NCBI GenBank assembly: GCA_016462445.1
Contig: JAEMTE010000001.1
Span: 26,133 to 90,132 of the forward strand
DNA from: Candidatus Nanopelagicus sp.
Lineage (GTDB): Bacteria; Actinomycetota; Actinomycetes; Nanopelagicales; Nanopelagicaceae
Reading direction: 5' to 3'
DNA length: 64,000 nucleotides
Shown in pieces: positions 48,456 through 56,824 of the stretch. Position 1 is the first letter of the stretch. Each line of letters begins with the position of its first letter. The position numbers were made by a program, and so were the translations under genes. The notes below the pieces were generated by a model. The model had not been told where the DNA came from and ran no database searches. It saw nothing but the letters and a program-made list of their open reading frames with translations.

Positions 48456-49796
48456 TTACTTAAGCTCTAATCTTACTAGTTGTACTAATGAATCTGCGAT
48501 CTTTTGAGCCAATTCCAAATCATTTGCCTCCACCATTACCCGAACCATTGGTTCAGTACCAGATGCGCGCACTAAAACTCTACCGATACCTGCTAATTGC
48601 TTCTCTGATTCTAGGATCGCATCCTTAATTTTTACTGAGGATGCCAACTTCTCTTTTGCAATATCTTTAACATTAATCAAAATCTGTGGGTATTTCTTCA
48701 TCACTGAGGCAAGTTCAAGAAGTGATTTCTTAGATTTTGCTACCACCTGCATTACCTGTAGCGCAGTCAATAACCCATCACCAGTATTTGAGAATTGGCG
48801 CATAATCACATGCCCTGATTGCTCACCCCCTAATGTGTAATCATTTTCTAGCATCTTCTCTAAGACATAACGATCACCCACTGCAGTCTTTTCAACTTTA
48901 ATACCTAGAGATTCCATCGATTTAATAAAACCTAGATTGCTCATTACGGTGCCGACCACCGTTTTTTTATTTAACTTATCGGCAGATAGCCAGTCAGTTG
49001 CTAATATATTTAATATGTAATCCCCATCAATAATCTGCCCATCTGAGGCAATTAATAAACAACGATCAGCATCACCATCATGGGCAATACCAATATCAGC
49101 ACCACTCTTTTTTACCTCACTTATTAAATTATCTAAATGAGTTGAGCCGCAATTCTCATTTATATTCCACCCAGTTGGAGTAGCAGAGATTGCGGTAACT
49201 GTTGCCCCCGCTCTTTCATAAGCATTAGGTGCTACAGATGATGCTGCGCCATTTGCACAATCGACAATTACCTTTAGCCCAGTTAATTTTGTGCTCATAG
49301 TAGAAAGTAGGTGGGCGATATAACGCTCCTTAGCACCCTCATCAAAGATAATTCGACCAACATTTAAACCAGTTGGTCTATCCCATGGCTCACCTAATCT
49401 TGCCTCGATCTGTGACTCTAGTGAATCAGCTAATTTATCCCCGCCCTTTGCAAAAAACTTAATTCCATTATCTGGCATTGGATTATGGGATGCACTAATC
49501 ATTACGCCAAGATCAGCACCACTTTCCTTAACTAAGAAGGCAACTGCAGGTGTTGGCAATACACCAACTCGATAAACATCAACACCAGCGCTAGTTAAAC
49601 CTGCAACAACTGCTGCCTCTAAAAAATCACCAGAGGCGCGAGAGTCTTGACCAACAATGGCTTTGGGGCGATGGCCGGCAAATAAACCAATCTCACCTAA
49701 TACATGAGCGGCGGCAATTGCTAAATCAACTGCAAGCTCTGCGGTTAGATCAACATTGGCGACACCTCGCACACCATCGGTGCCGAAGAGGGCCAT
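48456..49796 (-). CDS. glmM: Phosphoglucosamine mutase
   Basis: LFGTDGVRGVAN, ISASHNPMPDNGIKFF, DGDADRCL, RASGTEPMVRVM. Confidence 0.97.
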   Translation of the reverse strand: MALFGTDGVRGVANVDLTAELAVDLAIAAAHVLGEIGLFAGHRPKAIVGQDSRASGDFLEAAVVAGLTSAGVDVYRVGVLPTPAVAFLVKESGADLGVMISASHNPMPDNGIKFFAKGGDKLADSLESQIEARLGEPWDRPTGLNVGRIIFDEGAKERYIAHLLSTMSTKLTGLKVIVDCANGAASSVAPNAYERAGATVTAISATPTGWNINENCGSTHLDNLISEVKKSGADIGIAHDGDADRCLLIASDGQIIDGDYILNILATDWLSADKLNKKTVVGTVMSNLGFIKSMESLGIKVEKTAVGDRYVLEKMLENDYTLGGEQSGHVIMRQFSNTGDGLLTALQVMQVVAKSKKSLLELASVMKKYPQILINVKDIAKEKLASSVKIKDAILESEKQLAGIGRVLVRASGTEPMVRVMVEANDLELAQKIADSLVQLVRLELK

Positions 49797-49820
49797 TAGA
49801 TTTAAGTTACTAAAAGTAAA

Positions 49821-50303
49821 TTAACGCTTGCTGTATTGAGAGCGCTTACGAGCCTTCTTTAGGCCGTACTTCTTTCGCTCAATTACACGAGCATCACGAG
49901 TTAAGAAGCCAGCCTTCTTAAGTGATGGACGGTTTGCATCAATATCGATCTCATTAAGCGCACGTGCTACACCTAATCGAAGTGCACCAGCTTGGCCAGA
50001 TGTTCCGCCACCATTAATGCGAGCGAAAACATCATATGTTCCCTCAGCACCTACTGTGCGAAATGGTTCTGAAACTGATTGTTGGTGAACCTTATTTGGA
50101 AAATAAACCTCAAGTGGCTTGCCATTTACAACCCAACGACCAGAACCTGGAACTAGGCGAACTCTGGCAACCGCCTCTTTGCGACGACCAACGCCACCAC
50201 CAGGTGCGGTGATTGCTTTACGATTTGTTGCAGCCGATGGCGTGCTTGAACTGTATGAGCTAGGAACCGTCTCATCGCCTACCTCTAAAATTTCTTCAGA
50301 CAT
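49821..50303 (-). CDS. rpsI: 30S ribosomal protein S9
   Basis: [20 protein letters not shown]-terminal [25 protein letters not shown]. Confidence 0.98.
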
Positions 50304-50313
50304 CTCTCTCCTA

Positions 50314-50769
50314 TTACTTCTTTACGATCTGGGACACTTGGCTAAACTCAAATACCTTAGGATTTTGTGCTGCATGTGGATGCTCAGATCCTGCATAAAC
50401 CTTTAACTTAGTAAGAGCTGCTCTTCCTACCGAATTCTTTGGCAGCATTCCTTTAATAGCTTTTTCAACCGCCCGAGTTGGGAACTTCTCAAACATATCT
50501 GAGTAAACAGTTGAGGTCATGCCACCTGGATAACCAGAGTGTTGATGAGCAAATTTCTGTGAAACTTTTGCACCAGTTAAAACTACCTTCTCAGCATTAA
50601 TAACAATTACAAAATCACCCATATCCATGTGCGGAGCAAAGGTGGTTTTATGCTTGCCATAAAGTAAATGTGCAGCATGCGTAGCAAGGCGACCAAGCAC
50701 TACATCTTGGGCATCAATAAGATGCCAAGTACGAGTGATCTCACCTGCTTTAGGTGTAAAAGTGCGCAC
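50314..50769 (-). CDS. rplM: 50S ribosomal protein L13
   Basis: [44 protein letters not shown]. Confidence 0.98.
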
Positions 50770-50825
50770 GCTATCTCTTTTCTTAAATTAAGGATTGTCC
50801 CAAATGGGTCATTTCCAACATGCGT

Positions 50826-50855
50826 AGATTACCTGTCGGTATGGGATTAGGTCAA
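50826..50855 (-). promoter_or_regulatory. Candidate housekeeping promoter for rplM-rpsI
   Basis: Minus strand TTGACC-N18-TAATCT in the 110-nt truA/rplM intergenic region. Confidence 0.6.
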
Positions 50856-50879
50856 AACCGCATTCTCATGCGCTCAAAA

Positions 50880-51722
50880 TCAGCCCTCAACCTCTTCAAG
50901 CTCTTGAATTGAGAGGTTGTTTTTATATCTACTCAAATATTGATCTGGCTGCGGATACTCCACCTTGATCAAAGTTAATCCTTTTGCTGGAAATACATAA
51001 CTATCAGAGATTCTCACCTTATCTTGCAAAGTCTTAAGCATCCACTCGGGTGCAAACCTACCTTCACCAACACAAACTGCTGCTCCTACCAAATTACGAA
51101 CCATGTTATAACGAAAAGAATCTGCCTTAACTTCACCGATAACTACGCCATTCTCATCACGGTGCCAGTCAAATTTCATAAGATTTTTAACAGTACTTCC
51201 GCCTTCGCGAAACTTACAAAATGCAAAGAAATCATGCTCTCCTAGCAGTAACTTTGAGCCAGCATTCATTAGATCAATATCTAACTCTCTAAACCACTCA
51301 GCGCTGTCATACCGATCAAGTGGGGCGGTTACTTTGCCAGCATCAATTATTTTATATTGATAGGTGCGCGAAATTGGTGTGAAGCGGGCGTGAAAATTCA
51401 CCTCAGCCCAACAGGTGCTAATAACTCGAACATCCTTATCTAAAATCTGATTTAGTCGAAATACTAGATTTTCAATGTTGGTATTTTCTGGTAGATCTGT
51501 ATGTATTACCTGTTGTTTTGCATGAACGCCAGCATCAGTTCGCCCCGCCACAACTGTTGCGATCTGATTTTGGGTAATAGTAGATAAGGCTTTTTCTACC
51601 TCTTCTTGAATGGTGCGCAGATTTGGTTGCTTCGCCCAGCCTGAAAAATTTGTTCCATCGTAAGTTAAATCAATTCTTAAACGAGAAAACCCACTCTTAG
51701 GGTCAAGAGTGGGTTTTGTCAT
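50880..51722 (-). CDS. truA: tRNA pseudouridine synthase A
   Basis: RIDLTYDGTNFSGWAKQPNLRTIQEEVEKAL, VVAGRTDAGVHAKQQVIH, FRYNMVRNLVGAAV. Confidence 0.95.
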   Translation of the reverse strand: MTKPTLDPKSGFSRLRIDLTYDGTNFSGWAKQPNLRTIQEEVEKALSTITQNQIATVVAGRTDAGVHAKQQVIHTDLPENTNIENLVFRLNQILDKDVRVISTCWAEVNFHARFTPISRTYQYKIIDAGKVTAPLDRYDSAEWFRELDIDLMNAGSKLLLGEHDFFAFCKFREGGSTVKNLMKFDWHRDENGVVIGEVKADSFRYNMVRNLVGAAVCVGEGRFAPEWMLKTLQDKVRISDSYVFPAKGLTLIKVEYPQPDQYLSRYKNNLSIQELEEVEG

Positions 51723-51747
51723 AATCTTTTTCTTTTAGGCTGCGTTA

Positions 51748-52152
51748 TTACTCAGCTTTCGCTGCTGCTTTTTTAGCTACCTTTTTAACTGGTGCACCTG
51801 CTTCAACCATTTCAATTACCGCCATTGGTGCATTATCACCTTTGCGCGGACCGATTTTAGTTATACGGGTGTAACCACCAGCACGGGATGCAAAGCGTGG
51901 TGCAATCTCAGTGAAGAGTGTGTGCACAACAGATTTGCTAGAGATACGTGCCATAACTCGGCGGCGTGCAGCAAGATCACCTTTTTTAGCATGAGTAATT
52001 AATCGCTCTGCTAATGGGCGAAGACGTTTTGCTTTAGCTTCGGTTGTAGTTAACTTTCCTTTTTCGAAAAGTTGCGCAGCAAGTGTTCCCAGCAATAATT
52101 TCTCATGTGCTGGTCCACTACCTAGGCGTGGGCCTTTACTTGGCTTTGGCAT
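51748..52152 (-). CDS. rplQ: 50S ribosomal protein L17
   Basis: [59 protein letters not shown]. Confidence 0.98.
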
Positions 52153-52160
52153 TTTTTCTC

Positions 52161-53174
52161 CTACAACTCTTCCGCGTCAACAAGTTCATCATCAACACTG
52201 CTTCCGTAGTTAGCATGCTTAGTTGGATCAAATCCAGCTGGGCTGTCTTTAAGTTGCATTCCCATAGATTGTAATTTCGCCTTAACCTCATCAATTGATT
52301 TGGAGCCGAAGTTACGAATATCCATTAGATCTGCCTCAGAACGAGAAAGTAATTCACCAACTGTGTGAATTCCTTCGCGCTTTAAGCAGTTATAAGAACG
52401 AACTGTTAGATCAAGATCTTCGATTGGAAGTGCCATATCTGCAGCGAGTGCTGCATCTTGAATGGAAGGTCCCATCTCAATTCCTTCAGCGTTAGCATTT
52501 AATTCACGAGCAAGACCAAATAGCTCAACCAATGTCTTTCCAGCTGATGCCATTGCATCTGATGGTTTCATTGATCGCTTAGTCTCAACATCTAGAACTA
52601 ACCGATCAAAGTCGGTTCTCTGCTCAACACGTGTTGCCTCAACTTTGTAGGTAACACGAAGCACAGGTGAGTAAATTGAATCAACCGGAATCCGGCCAAT
52701 CTCACCTCCTGCTTGCTTGTTTTGTACCGCAGTGATGTAACCACGGCCACGCTCAACAGTTAGCTCAATCTCAAACTTTGCTTTTGAGTTCAAAGTTGCA
52801 ATATGAAGCTCTGGATTGTGTACCGCAACTCCTGCTGGAGCTGCTACATCTGCGCCAGTAACAACTGCCTCACCATTTTTACGAATGTAAAGAAGTGATG
52901 GCTCATCATTATCTGAGGATAAAACTAAGTTTTTGATGTTTAAAACGATCTCAGCGAGATCCTCTTTAACACCTTCTAAAGATGTGAACTCATGCAATGC
53001 GCCATTTACGCGAATACCGGTAATAGCTGCACCGGGAATCGAAGATAGTAATGTACGACGAATTGAGTTACCAAGGGTGTAGCCGAAACCTGGCTCTAGC
53101 GGCTCGATAATGAACCGTGAACGGTACTCGCTTACTACTTCCTCAGTGAGGATTGGGCGTTGTGCAATTAGCAC
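52161..53174 (-). CDS. rpoA: DNA-directed RNA polymerase alpha subunit
   Basis: [36 protein letters not shown]-terminal domain [20 protein letters not shown]. Confidence 0.98.
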
Positions 53175-53277
53175 TTTGTTCCTCCGTATGTTCTGAAAGA
53201 CCCTCTATTTGATCTTTCGGTTGGGCTTAGATATTTAGTTTTTACTGCGGTAAATCTTTACTGCATTAAGTACTTGA

Positions 53278-53904
53278 TTACTTGGAGTAAAGCTCAACAA
53301 TTAGTTGCTCTTGTACTTGAGTATCAATAATTGGTCGGGTTGGAACGGCGTGGACCAAAATTCGCATTTTAGAACCCACAACCTCCATCCATGCTGGAAC
53401 AGATTTCTCACCAAGCTCTGCACTTGCGACGATAAATGGTGTGGTGTCTAATGAATCTGGCACAACATCAATTATGTCCATCGGTGTAGTTCGGAAAGAA
53501 GGAATGTTTACCTTTTTGCCATTAACTAAGAAGTGACCATGGCGCACTAATTGGCGTGCCATGTCGCGGCTCTTAGCAAAGCCAGCACGGAAGACCACGT
53601 TGTCTAACCGAGTTTCAAGTAGTACCAAAAGATTTTCACCAGTCTTACCTTGCAGACGGTTTGCCTCTTCGTAGTAACCACGGAACTGCTTCTCTAGTAC
53701 TCCGTAAATACGTGCGCACTTTTGCTTCTCACGCATCTGTAGTAAGTACTCAGAATCTTTTGAACGAGCACGGCCATGTTGTCCTGGTGGATATGGACGT
53801 GACTCAATTGGACACTTTGGTCCATCGCACTTAGAGCCCTTAAGGAAGAGCTTTACTTTTTCGCGACGGCATCTTTTGCAATCTGCACCGGTATAGCGAG
53901 CCAT
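53278..53904 (-). CDS. rpsD: 30S ribosomal protein S4
   Basis: MARYTGADCKRCRREKVKLFLKGSKC; LETRLDNVVFRAGFAKSRDMARQLVRHGHFLVNGKKVNIPS. Confidence 0.98.
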   Translation of the reverse strand: MARYTGADCKRCRREKVKLFLKGSKCDGPKCPIESRPYPPGQHGRARSKDSEYLLQMREKQKCARIYGVLEKQFRGYYEEANRLQGKTGENLLVLLETRLDNVVFRAGFAKSRDMARQLVRHGHFLVNGKKVNIPSFRTTPMDIIDVVPDSLDTTPFIVASAELGEKSVPAWMEVVGSKMRILVHAVPTRPIIDTQVQEQLIVELYSK

Positions 53905-53920
53905 AGTTTTCTCCCTTTCC

Positions 53921-54355
53921 TTATACTCGACGTGGTTTACGTGGACGGCAACCGTTGTGTGGTGCTGGAGTTACATCAGAGATGGCTCCAACCTCAAGAC
54001 CGGCTGCTTGTAATGAACGAATTGCAGTTTCCCGGCCAGAGCCAGGTCCCTTAACAAATACATCTACCTTCTTTAAACCATGCTCCTGTGCTTTACGAGC
54101 AGCAGCTTCTGCTGCCATTTGTGCAGCAAAGGGAGTTGATTTACGAGAACCTTTAAATCCAACCTGTCCAGATGATGACCAAGCAATTACCCCACCTGCT
54201 GGATCGGTAATAGAAACAATGGTGTTATTAAATGTGCTCTTAATATAAGCATGACCAAAGGCAACATTTTTCTTATCCTTCTTACGTGCTTTAATCTTCT
54301 TTGGTGCAGATTTTTCTGCTGCCTCTTTTGCTGGCTTAGTTTTTTCGGCGGCCAT
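53921..54355 (-). CDS. rpsK: 30S ribosomal protein S11
   Basis: [51 protein letters not shown]. Confidence 0.98.
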
Positions 54356-54732
54356 TACTTGGTCTCCTTCTTCTTACCAGCGATTGCAACACGTGGACCC
54401 TTACGAGTACGAGCATTGGTATGGGTTCGCTGACCGCGGACTGGTAATCCTTTACGGTGGCGACTTCCTTGATAACTTTGAATTTCAACTTTGCGACGGA
54501 TGTCCCCGGCAACTTCGCGGCGAAGATCACCCTCGATTTTGTAATTTGCTTCAATAAACTCACGAAGCTTTGCCAACTCTGGCTCTTGTAAATCTTTAAC
54601 GCGGACATCAGGTGATATACCGGTGGCAGCAAGTGTTGCCTGCGCACGGGTAAGACCCATTCCGAAAATATAGGTGAGTGCAATCTCAACTCGCTTTTCG
54701 CGAGGAAGATCGACACCAACAAGACGTGCCAT
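54355..54732 (-). CDS. rpsM: 30S ribosomal protein S13
   Basis: [49 protein letters not shown]. Confidence 0.98.
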
Positions 54733-54753
54733 ATCGCTTACCTGTTTCTTTTA

Positions 54754-54816
54754 TCCGAAAGGTCCTCCGCAATGCCTCCAGGTATCTCTACCTGGCCTCA
54801 GCCTTTCGGACTGAGG
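54754..54816 (-). ncRNA. Candidate structured cis-regulatory RNA leader (pseudoknot-capable) upstream of rpsM
   Basis: Minus-strand RNA: CCUCAG-[UCCGAAAGG]-CUGAGG hairpin, then CCAGGUA-GAGA-UACCUGG hairpin. The 9-nt loop UCCGAAAGG is fully complementary to downstream CCUUUCGGA (54754-54762). Confidence 0.72.
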
Positions 54817-54865
54817 GTCATAATTAAGTTTTACCTTAATTACGTTACATCACGCGTTTATTAAA

Positions 54866-54979
54866 TTAACCCTGACGTTGTTTATGACGTAGGTTTTCGC
54901 AGATCACCATAACGCGACCATTACGACGAATGACTTTGCACTTGTCGCAAATCTTTTTCACGCTAGGTTTGACCTTCAC
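54866..54979 (-). CDS. rpmJ: 50S ribosomal protein L36 (not in the ORF track)
   Basis: Manual translation from [40 protein letters not shown], 37 aa, correct operon position. Confidence 0.97.
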
Positions 54980-55014
54980 GATTACCTTTCTAACAACTAC
55001 AGTTTAAAAATTAT

Positions 55015-55236
55015 TTATTTGTAACGATAAATAATTCGACCTCTAGTGAGGTCATACGGACTAAGTTCTACAATCACTTTATCTTCTGGCAAAATACGAA
55101 TGTAGTTCTGTCGCATCTTTCCACTGATATGTGCTAAAACTTTGTGCCCATTTGTTAACTCAACTCGGAACATTGCGTTCGGTAGTGCTTCAGCAACAGT
55201 GCCTTCGATCTCAATTGCACCGTCTTTCTTGGCCAA
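55015..55236 (-). CDS. infA: Translation initiation factor IF-1
   Basis: [76 protein letters not shown] start. Confidence 0.98.
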
Positions 55237-55367
55237 GCGATACCTACTTATCTGTTCTAAATCAGGTTTACCCCTTACGAGGCAGGAGGGATAGTTTAGG
55301 CGGGCAGGGTAAAAAGGGGAAATCCGCTCAACTATGCCTAAATCTATGCGGGGATTTATCTAGAAAA

Positions 55368-56177
55368 TTAAAGCAGGGTTGAGATCTCAACTCCCAGCCT
55401 GCCTAATTCAGCTTTTCCGCCATCTACTGCAGTTAATACAAATACCTTGCCATCTGGTGCGATTGCATAAGAGTGTTCAAAGTGTGCACCTTTTGATGAA
55501 TCTTGTGAAACCACGGTCCACTCATCACTTAATACTTTAGTTTTTTCACTGCCACGAGTAATCATTGGCTCAATTGCAAGTGCCATTCCAGCAACTAAAT
55601 CTGGGCCATTACCTGCTGGACCAAAATTTAAAATATGTGGCTCTTGATGCATTGCACTACCAATTCCATGGCCGCCATACTCACGTAAAATTCCATATTT
55701 ACCTTGTGAATCAATGTATCTTTGAATCGCCTCTGAAATATCAGTTAACTTTGCCCCATTTTTACCAGCTGCAATTCCCCGCCACATAGACTCTTCACAC
55801 ACATCCATTAACTTTTGATCTGCTGCTTCAACCTCACCTAATCCAATTGAGATTGCAGCATCCCCATGCCAGCCATCAATAATTGCGCCAAAATCAATTG
55901 ATAAGAGATCACCTGAGATTAATTTTCTTTTATTTGGAATTCCATGCACAACCTCTTCATTGACAGAGGCGCAGATAACCGCTGGAAAGCCGTGATAGCC
56001 AAGAAAGGATGATGTTGCTCCATGCTTTACTAAGTTAGTTGCTGCCATCTCATCTAGCTCAACTGTGGTCATGCCAACCTGAGCTGATTCTTTAATTAAC
56101 TTAAGAGTATCTGCCACAACTAATCCTGCTTTGCGCATAGATTTTAATTGTTCTAAGCTTTTTATCTCAATTGCCAT
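55368..56177 (-). CDS. map: Methionine aminopeptidase type I
   Basis: MRKAGLVVADTL, GYHGFPAVICASVNEEVVHGIPNKR, GGHGIGSAMHQEPHI. Confidence 0.97.
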   Translation of the reverse strand: MAIEIKSLEQLKSMRKAGLVVADTLKLIKESAQVGMTTVELDEMAATNLVKHGATSSFLGYHGFPAVICASVNEEVVHGIPNKRKLISGDLLSIDFGAIIDGWHGDAAISIGLGEVEAADQKLMDVCEESMWRGIAAGKNGAKLTDISEAIQRYIDSQGKYGILREYGGHGIGSAMHQEPHILNFGPAGNGPDLVAGMALAIEPMITRGSEKTKVLSDEWTVVSQDSSKGAHFEHSYAIAPDGKVFVLTAVDGGKAELGRLGVEISTLL

Positions 56178-56182
56178 ATTAA

Positions 56183-56824
56183 TTACTTAAGAATAGCGAT
56201 GGCGTTTTTAGTAATCTCAGAGACCTCACCCAGGGCTGAGATATTTTTTAACAATCCAGCGGATTTATAAAAAGAAATAATTGGCTCAGTCTGTTCGCTG
56301 TAAATCTCAAGCCGGCGAGATACAACCTCTTCTTTGTCATCCTCACGTTGATAAAGTTCACCCTGACATTTATCGCAAACACCAGCCACCTTTGGTTTTT
56401 CAAATTCAATATGTGATGAAGCACCGCAACCTCGGCAGGTGCGCCGGCCGGATAATCGCTTAATAATTTCAGCATGATCAATCTTTAATTCAAGAGCAGC
56501 ATCTAGCGGCATATTTTTTGCTTTTAAAATACCATCTAAAACTTCAGCTTGATTAGTATTTCTAGGAAAGCCATCTAATAAAAAGCCATTGCCGACATCG
56601 CTATTTCCTAGCCGCTCCCTAACCATCTCATTAGTAACAGAATCTGGAACTAACTCACCACGATCCATAAAACTTTGGGCTTGCTTACCTAATTCTGTGC
56701 CATTTTTTAAATTAGCACGAAAGATATCGCCAGTTGAAATATGTGGAATTTTATAGTGCTTAGCTAATTGAACCGCTTGTGTTCCTTTACCAGCACCTGG
56801 TGGGCCAACCAGGATTAATCGCAT
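56183..56824 (-). CDS. adk: Adenylate kinase (zinc-type lid)
   Basis: MRLILVGPPGAGKGTQAVQLAKHY; GFPRNTNQAEVLD; lid CRGCGASSHIEFEKPKVAGVCDKCQGEL. Confidence 0.97.
   Translation of the reverse strand: MRLILVGPPGAGKGTQAVQLAKHYKIPHISTGDIFRANLKNGTELGKQAQSFMDRGELVPDSVTNEMVRERLGNSDVGNGFLLDGFPRNTNQAEVLDGILKAKNMPLDAALELKIDHAEIIKRLSGRRTCRGCGASSHIEFEKPKVAGVCDKCQGELYQREDDKEEVVSRRLEIYSEQTEPIISFYKSAGLLKNISALGEVSEITKNAIAILK

Follow-up and report, generated by a model that had tools for sequence, protein, structure and literature searches.

A conserved pseudoknot leader 5′ of rpsM in most sampled Actinomycetes as a probable regulator of the alpha operon

Does the long gap between rpmJ and rpsM in an actinobacterial ribosomal-protein operon encode a regulatory RNA, and if so, which protein would bind it? 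How actinobacteria balance their ribosomal proteins is described as almost unknown (PMC8470358). We addressed the question in a stretch of 64,000 nucleotides from Candidatus Nanopelagicus sp. (contig JAEMTE010000001.1), hereafter called the window. A first-pass annotation of the same letters had singled out this gap as about 130 nt long in a superoperon with most gaps under 40 nt. We measured 133 nt on the minus strand, from the rpmJ stop at 54866 to the rpsM start at 54732, and found the quoted letters in place; the operon has two other large gaps, one of 131 nt between map and infA and one of 103 nt between rpsD and rpoA. The leader region is present as a single copy in the genome. The genes and the initiation signal concerned are:

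54355–54732, minus strand: rpsM (uS13), open reading frame, first gene 3′ of the leader
53921–54355, minus strand: rpsK (uS11), open reading frame and tblastn query, candidate regulated gene and candidate ligand
53278–53904, minus strand: rpsD (uS4), open reading frame, inside the operon here but no longer there in many leader-bearing relatives
54740–54743, minus strand: AGGU, the probable rpsM Shine-Dalgarno (SD) site as judged from the sequence, 7–8 nt 5′ of the AUG

An SD-like GGAGG had also been pointed out and does lie in the enclosed segment; at 30-odd nt from the AUG it was rejected as the rpsM SD, which is AGGU. The 131-nt map-infA gap (55237–55367, minus strand), which lies 5′ of infA, gave no match in an Rfam scan; for M. 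tuberculosis, PMC3207917 reports an abundant infA 5′ UTR of 204 nt.

The rpmJ-rpsM gap folds with a minimum free energy of −47.3 kcal/mol, compared with −27.6 ± 3.5 for shuffled sequences (z = −5.7), and none of 200 shuffles was equally stable. The fold contains both hairpins that the first-pass annotation had described, namely CCUCAG/CUGAGG around a 9-nt loop (P3) and a GNRA-capped 7-bp hairpin (P4), as well as the perfect complement of the P3 loop. It had overlooked half of the structure, a closing helix (P1) and a further hairpin (P2), which complete a four-way junction. The elements, with their pairing in the alignments, are:

54754–54857, minus strand: whole structured leader, P1–P4 four-way junction plus pseudoknot, supported by fold z, alignment, pair counts and homologues
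54847–54854, minus strand: P1 5′ strand CGUGAUGU, junction-closing helix, 100% of cells paired, 5 of 8 pairs changed on both sides
54768–54775, minus strand: P1 3′ strand GCAUUGCG, same pair counts; 54854–54847 pair with 54775–54768 to give 8 bp
54819–54844, minus strand: P2 hairpin, AU-rich, variable in length and sequence, 94.4% of cells paired, double changes in 6 of 6 counted pairs
54796–54816, minus strand: P3 hairpin CCUCAG-UCCGAAAGG-CUGAGG, 99.4% paired (class-wide 99.2%), double changes in 5 of 6 pairs
54802–54810, minus strand: pseudoknot 5′ strand UCCGAAAGG, the 9-nt P3 loop, pairing with 54762–54754 as covariation supports
54778–54795, minus strand: P4 hairpin, 7 bp with GAGA loop, 98.1% paired in four counted pairs
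54754–54762, minus strand: pseudoknot 3′ strand CCUUUCGGA, 92.6% paired class-wide in a structure-blind alignment

The H-type pseudoknot formed by the P3 loop and CCUUUCGGA ends about 10 nt 5′ of the rpsM SD site. The annotation had offered either a pseudoknot or two mutually exclusive folds. Because the pseudoknot can coexist with P1–P4 at the cost of only two loop pairs, we favor it; the P3 loop can alternatively close as CC-GAAA-GG, and only those two pairs are lost once the pseudoknot forms.

Conservation was assessed initially at the level of the order. Of 201 genomes of the family, 130 yielded leader homologues in a DNA search. We made a covariance model from 27 of these homologues and searched 151 genomes of the order; it matched in 112 of them, representing 14 of 15 genera, and homologues stand before rpsM in 92 of the 104 good genomes. 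In a structure-blind alignment of this Nanopelagicales-like family, comprising 33 pairs and 885 cells, 94.8% of cells were paired and 23 of the 33 pairs had changed on both sides. No shuffle attained the covariation score of this alignment, and sliding the partner by 1–3 columns lowered pairing to 30–47%. The first-pass annotation had staked its proposal on compensatory covariation in the stems, and such changes are strong in every helix. Its nine pseudoknot pairs are perfect in the window, but the outermost one is not conserved and pairs in only 7 of 27 sequences. The conserved pseudoknot thus measures about 7–8 bp in the window's family, and 6–7 bp in the class; examples of its paired strands are UCCGAAAGG/CCUUUCGGA, UCCGACAGG/CCUGUCGGA and UCCGAUAGG/CCUAUCGGA. 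P4 is missing in genome L048 and in genome family f9 (L209, L217, L229), all of which keep P1, P3 and the pseudoknot. P4 is thus dispensable, and therefore unlikely to be the essential contact, and P1, P3 and the pseudoknot are the minimal core of the element.

Intergenic position and hairpins could also be explained by an element that works without an RNA regulator, such as a promoter or other inverted repeat acting at the DNA level, a repeat, or a terminator. We consider this extremely improbable. P1 has conserved U·G and G·U pairs, which are possible only on the rpsM-sense strand, so that selection acts on the RNA and not on the DNA. The element is single-copy in the genome, its pseudoknot links a loop to a distant strand, and compensatory changes affect every helix; the absence of a U-run after the hairpins makes a terminator unlikely. 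Moreover, the corresponding M. tuberculosis region is reported as a transcribed 5′ UTR (PMC3207917).

The distribution of the leader proved wider than its first description. Model R1, built on the window's family only, found no further match in 397 genomes of the phylum; this negative was false, the model being narrow and AT-rich and the first look limited. The class-wide leader came to light by direct reading of rpmJ-rpsM gaps in other actinobacteria: members of the class Actinomycetes share the layout, for instance CCCCGG-UUCGGAGG-CCGGGG followed downstream by AGA-CCUCCGAA. We scored the core in 82 gaps of other class members with an anchored finder and dinucleotide-shuffle controls; this finder replaced earlier ones, which often chose wrong hairpins in GC-rich gaps. 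Scores of at least 17 were reached by 74 of the 82 gaps vs 7.9% of shuffles, and scores of at least 18 by 68 gaps vs 2.3%, Streptomyces and Mycobacterium included. Among real sequences scoring at least 17, 81% had the full four-way junction, compared with 8% when the flanks were shuffled.

In a structure-blind MAFFT alignment of 66 class sequences, the pseudoknot was 92.6% paired, a share that fell to 36–56% when the strands were slid. The alignment contained 56 pseudoknot double-change cells, against a mean of 12.3 and a maximum of 28 after permutation. On a tree built from the remaining alignment columns, both strands had changed with pairing kept on 22 branches; on 20 of these branches the changes fell within the four inner variable pairs. 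Among minority types, the P3 loop paired with its own species' 3′ strand at −11.2 kcal/mol, vs −5.4 kcal/mol when strands were swapped between species. When 84,980 genomes of named species were scanned with a pattern, at least 111 of the matches listed (121 in 120 stretches) lay directly 5′ of rpsM; since the pattern fixes P3 and its loop, only this position and the downstream ACCUCC count as independent evidence. Genera among the matches listed include Streptomyces, Micromonospora, Frankia, Nocardia, Rhodococcus, Arthrobacter, Cellulomonas and Nonomuraea, with one Mycobacterium and others. A second pattern, CGGAGGCY...GACCTCCG, applied to whole genomes, was discarded for yielding mostly chance matches in GC-rich DNA.

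Homologues of rpsM were found in 123 of 128 class genomes, and a few class members, such as L163 and L198, have no recognizable leader. In the other classes of the phylum, 19 of 23 genomes with a resolved gap had gaps of only 4–47 nt, and the four longer ones all scored 15 or less. Taken together, sequence comparison indicates that a pseudoknot leader 5′ of rpsM is preserved across the class Actinomycetes, in most sampled members. The observation of the first-pass annotation (54733–54820) was real, but the element reaches beyond those coordinates, and also beyond the lineage.

The position of the core suggests how it might act. Across the class, the pseudoknot 3′ strand mostly begins 25–33 nt 5′ of the rpsM start codon, with the SD within about 10 nt after it. 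Loop 1 usually has 1–2 nt, stem 1 has 6 bp and stem 2 has 6–8 bp; a loop 1 of 1–2 nt over a 6–7-bp stem 2, with a 6-bp stem 1, is ordinary for an H-type pseudoknot. We also considered a switch, with the SD site sequestered by the pseudoknot 3′ strand in an alternative pairing. Indeed, ACCUUUC can pair with GAAACAGGU in the window (in the minimum-free-energy fold, at about −5 kcal/mol), and ACCUCC, the strand common in the class, is anti-SD-like. However, the 3′ strand pairs no better with its own SD region (−4.7 kcal/mol) than with a swapped one (−5.2 kcal/mol). We disfavored this alternative hairpin because SD pairing does not co-evolve, whereas pairing with the P3 loop does, and we regard such a switch as unlikely.

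The reading that we prefer, at a probability of roughly 0.7, is that the element serves the actinobacterial alpha operon, rpsM-rpsK-(rpsD)-rpoA-rplQ, as an mRNA leader acting in cis, one that would control translation initiation through a protein-stabilized core. An operon ribosomal protein in excess over rRNA would bind the core of P1, P3 and pseudoknot and stabilize it directly beside the SD site. The 30S subunit would then be unable to load productively, through blocking or entrapment, and translation of rpsM would fall, as would, by coupling, that of rpsK and the genes behind it. It is also conceivable that the leader needs no protein and serves, for instance, in mRNA stability or as a standby element.

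Which protein might bind was approached through the gene content of the operon. The first-pass annotation had proposed autoregulation by S4, as in E. coli, whose alpha operon is repressed when S4 binds the pseudoknot. Regulation by S4 at a site 5′ of rpsM is established or predicted for Gammaproteobacteria, Clostridia and Fusobacteriales (PMC7247131; PMC10931766), in E. coli by entrapment acting on the rpsM pseudoknot (PMC10931766), and rpsD lies inside the operon in the window's genome. However, among leader-bearing named loci compared by tblastn, rpsD stands between rpsK and rpoA in 43 and is absent from that position in 54, where rpsK is followed by rpoA after 101–301 nt. In the genomes checked, S4 is encoded elsewhere. 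Five families include genomes whose sole S4 gene is detached and about 40–46% identical to that of the window, and all 12 examined genomes of this kind keep the core, with one P3 pair broken in L151 and L217. Nor was a leader copy recognized before detached rpsD in the fetched upstream regions, in only part of which the rpsD start was located.

Since rpsD has left the operon in these leader-bearing loci, either S4 would act in trans, which is possible, or the regulator would be S13 or S11. Thus, the pseudoknot leader 5′ of rpsM stands from the first-pass proposal, but S4 autoregulation does not stand as worded, because the leader persists where rpsD is gone. S13 and S11 are serious candidates, as both stay in the operon when rpsD leaves: rpsM directly follows the leader in every case seen, and rpsK follows too in loci with enough sequence. 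A class-wide leader regulated by S13 (or S11) might explain why it survives wherever rpsD leaves, but a constant neighbor is no proof of ligand identity, and the papers searched contained no report of S13 or S11 as a bacterial operator-binding repressor. We hold this proposal and an actinobacterial S4 operator to be equally tentative. Roughly apportioned by ligand, S4, acting in trans in many lineages, is conceivable at less than even odds; another protein or none at all is only slightly less likely, S13 by itself is rather unlikely, and S11 by itself is improbable.

Further elements were observed near rpoA and near detached rpsD. A conserved one lies 5′ of rpoA in the rpsD-rpoA gap of the window (53218–53195, minus strand) and also in loci L082, L250–L279 and L300–L419. 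It is a hairpin with the octaloop A[AU]AU[AGU]G[N]G closed by C-G, and in the examples it lies 31–38 nt 5′ of the start of rpoA. Of 103 loci whose rpoA start was recognized, 80 have it, whether rpsD was in the operon or not. It had no Rfam match in the window and is possibly a separate operator for rpoA-rplQ. In six Streptomyces-like genomes (L280, L282–L286), the sequences 5′ of detached rpsD are mutually similar and unrelated to the rpsM leader, with the inverted repeats GCCCACC...GGUGGGC and GUGCUGCAC. Three of these regions gave no meaningful match in Rfam, and a separate leader is possible there. In L281, L287, L293 and L294, detached rpsD is preceded by sequences like TTAGGTTAGGCTCAC or TAAGGTAAGCCTAAC, which resemble metal-regulator boxes, so that some S4 genes may be metal-regulated.

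The comparison with Rfam and the alpha-operon model that the first-pass annotation had suggested returned no match. No family of Rfam 15 exceeded its gathering score for the leader of the window or its relatives (best window match, E = 3.7). The covariance model of the E. coli S4 operator, Alpha_RBS (RF00140), had no match at E ≤ 10 on 54000–55400, nor at E ≤ 1 on 49500–56500; among relatives its best score was 19.3 bits (L082) against a gathering score of 38, in a match that takes in the rpsM coding start. Table 1 of Eckert and Weinberg 2020 lists no rpsM leader in Actinobacteria (PMC7247131), and we found no description of the structure in open-access papers, so an earlier one could exist in the subscription literature. 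The suspicion of an undescribed family thus agrees with Rfam and the openly accessible papers. As a conserved, covarying RNA immediately 5′ of a ribosomal-protein gene, the element is best read, by look and placement, as an uncatalogued ribosomal-protein leader family and is a good candidate for a new Rfam family. The operon behind this strongly supported leader encodes the RNA polymerase alpha subunit besides ribosomal proteins, and the leader itself ranges from small, streamlined genomes up to Streptomyces and Mycobacterium. Because some genomes have rpsD in the operon and others do not, the choice between S4 in trans and S13 or S11 is directly testable; S13 or S11, if true, would be a ligand with no known regulatory role in bacteria.

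Several known systems resemble the actinobacterial leader in part. In M. tuberculosis, the same intergenic region yields a 216-nt rpsM 5′ UTR that ranks with the most abundant transcripts of this kind and resembles the rpoA 5′ UTR; the available part of that report gives neither structure, family nor mechanism (Arnvig et al. 2011, PMC3207917). Mycobacterial rpsO (S15) is likewise an actinobacterial ribosomal-protein mRNA, with a 5′-UTR pseudoknot before the start codon that is needed for feedback; its gene and ligand differ, and a four-way junction is unmentioned in the available part of PMC8470358. The S4 leaders predicted in Clostridia and Fusobacteriales also lie 5′ of rpsM-rpsK-rpsD-rpoA-rplQ, but belong to other lineages, and the word pseudoknot is absent from the main text of PMC7247131. 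Finally, the E. coli S4 operator (RF00140) and the actinobacterial element are both pseudoknot leaders directly 5′ of rpsM; they differ in that the rpsM ribosome-binding site is part of the pseudoknot in E. coli (PMC10931766), a trait of Alpha_RBS, whereas the actinobacterial pseudoknot stops before the SD site.
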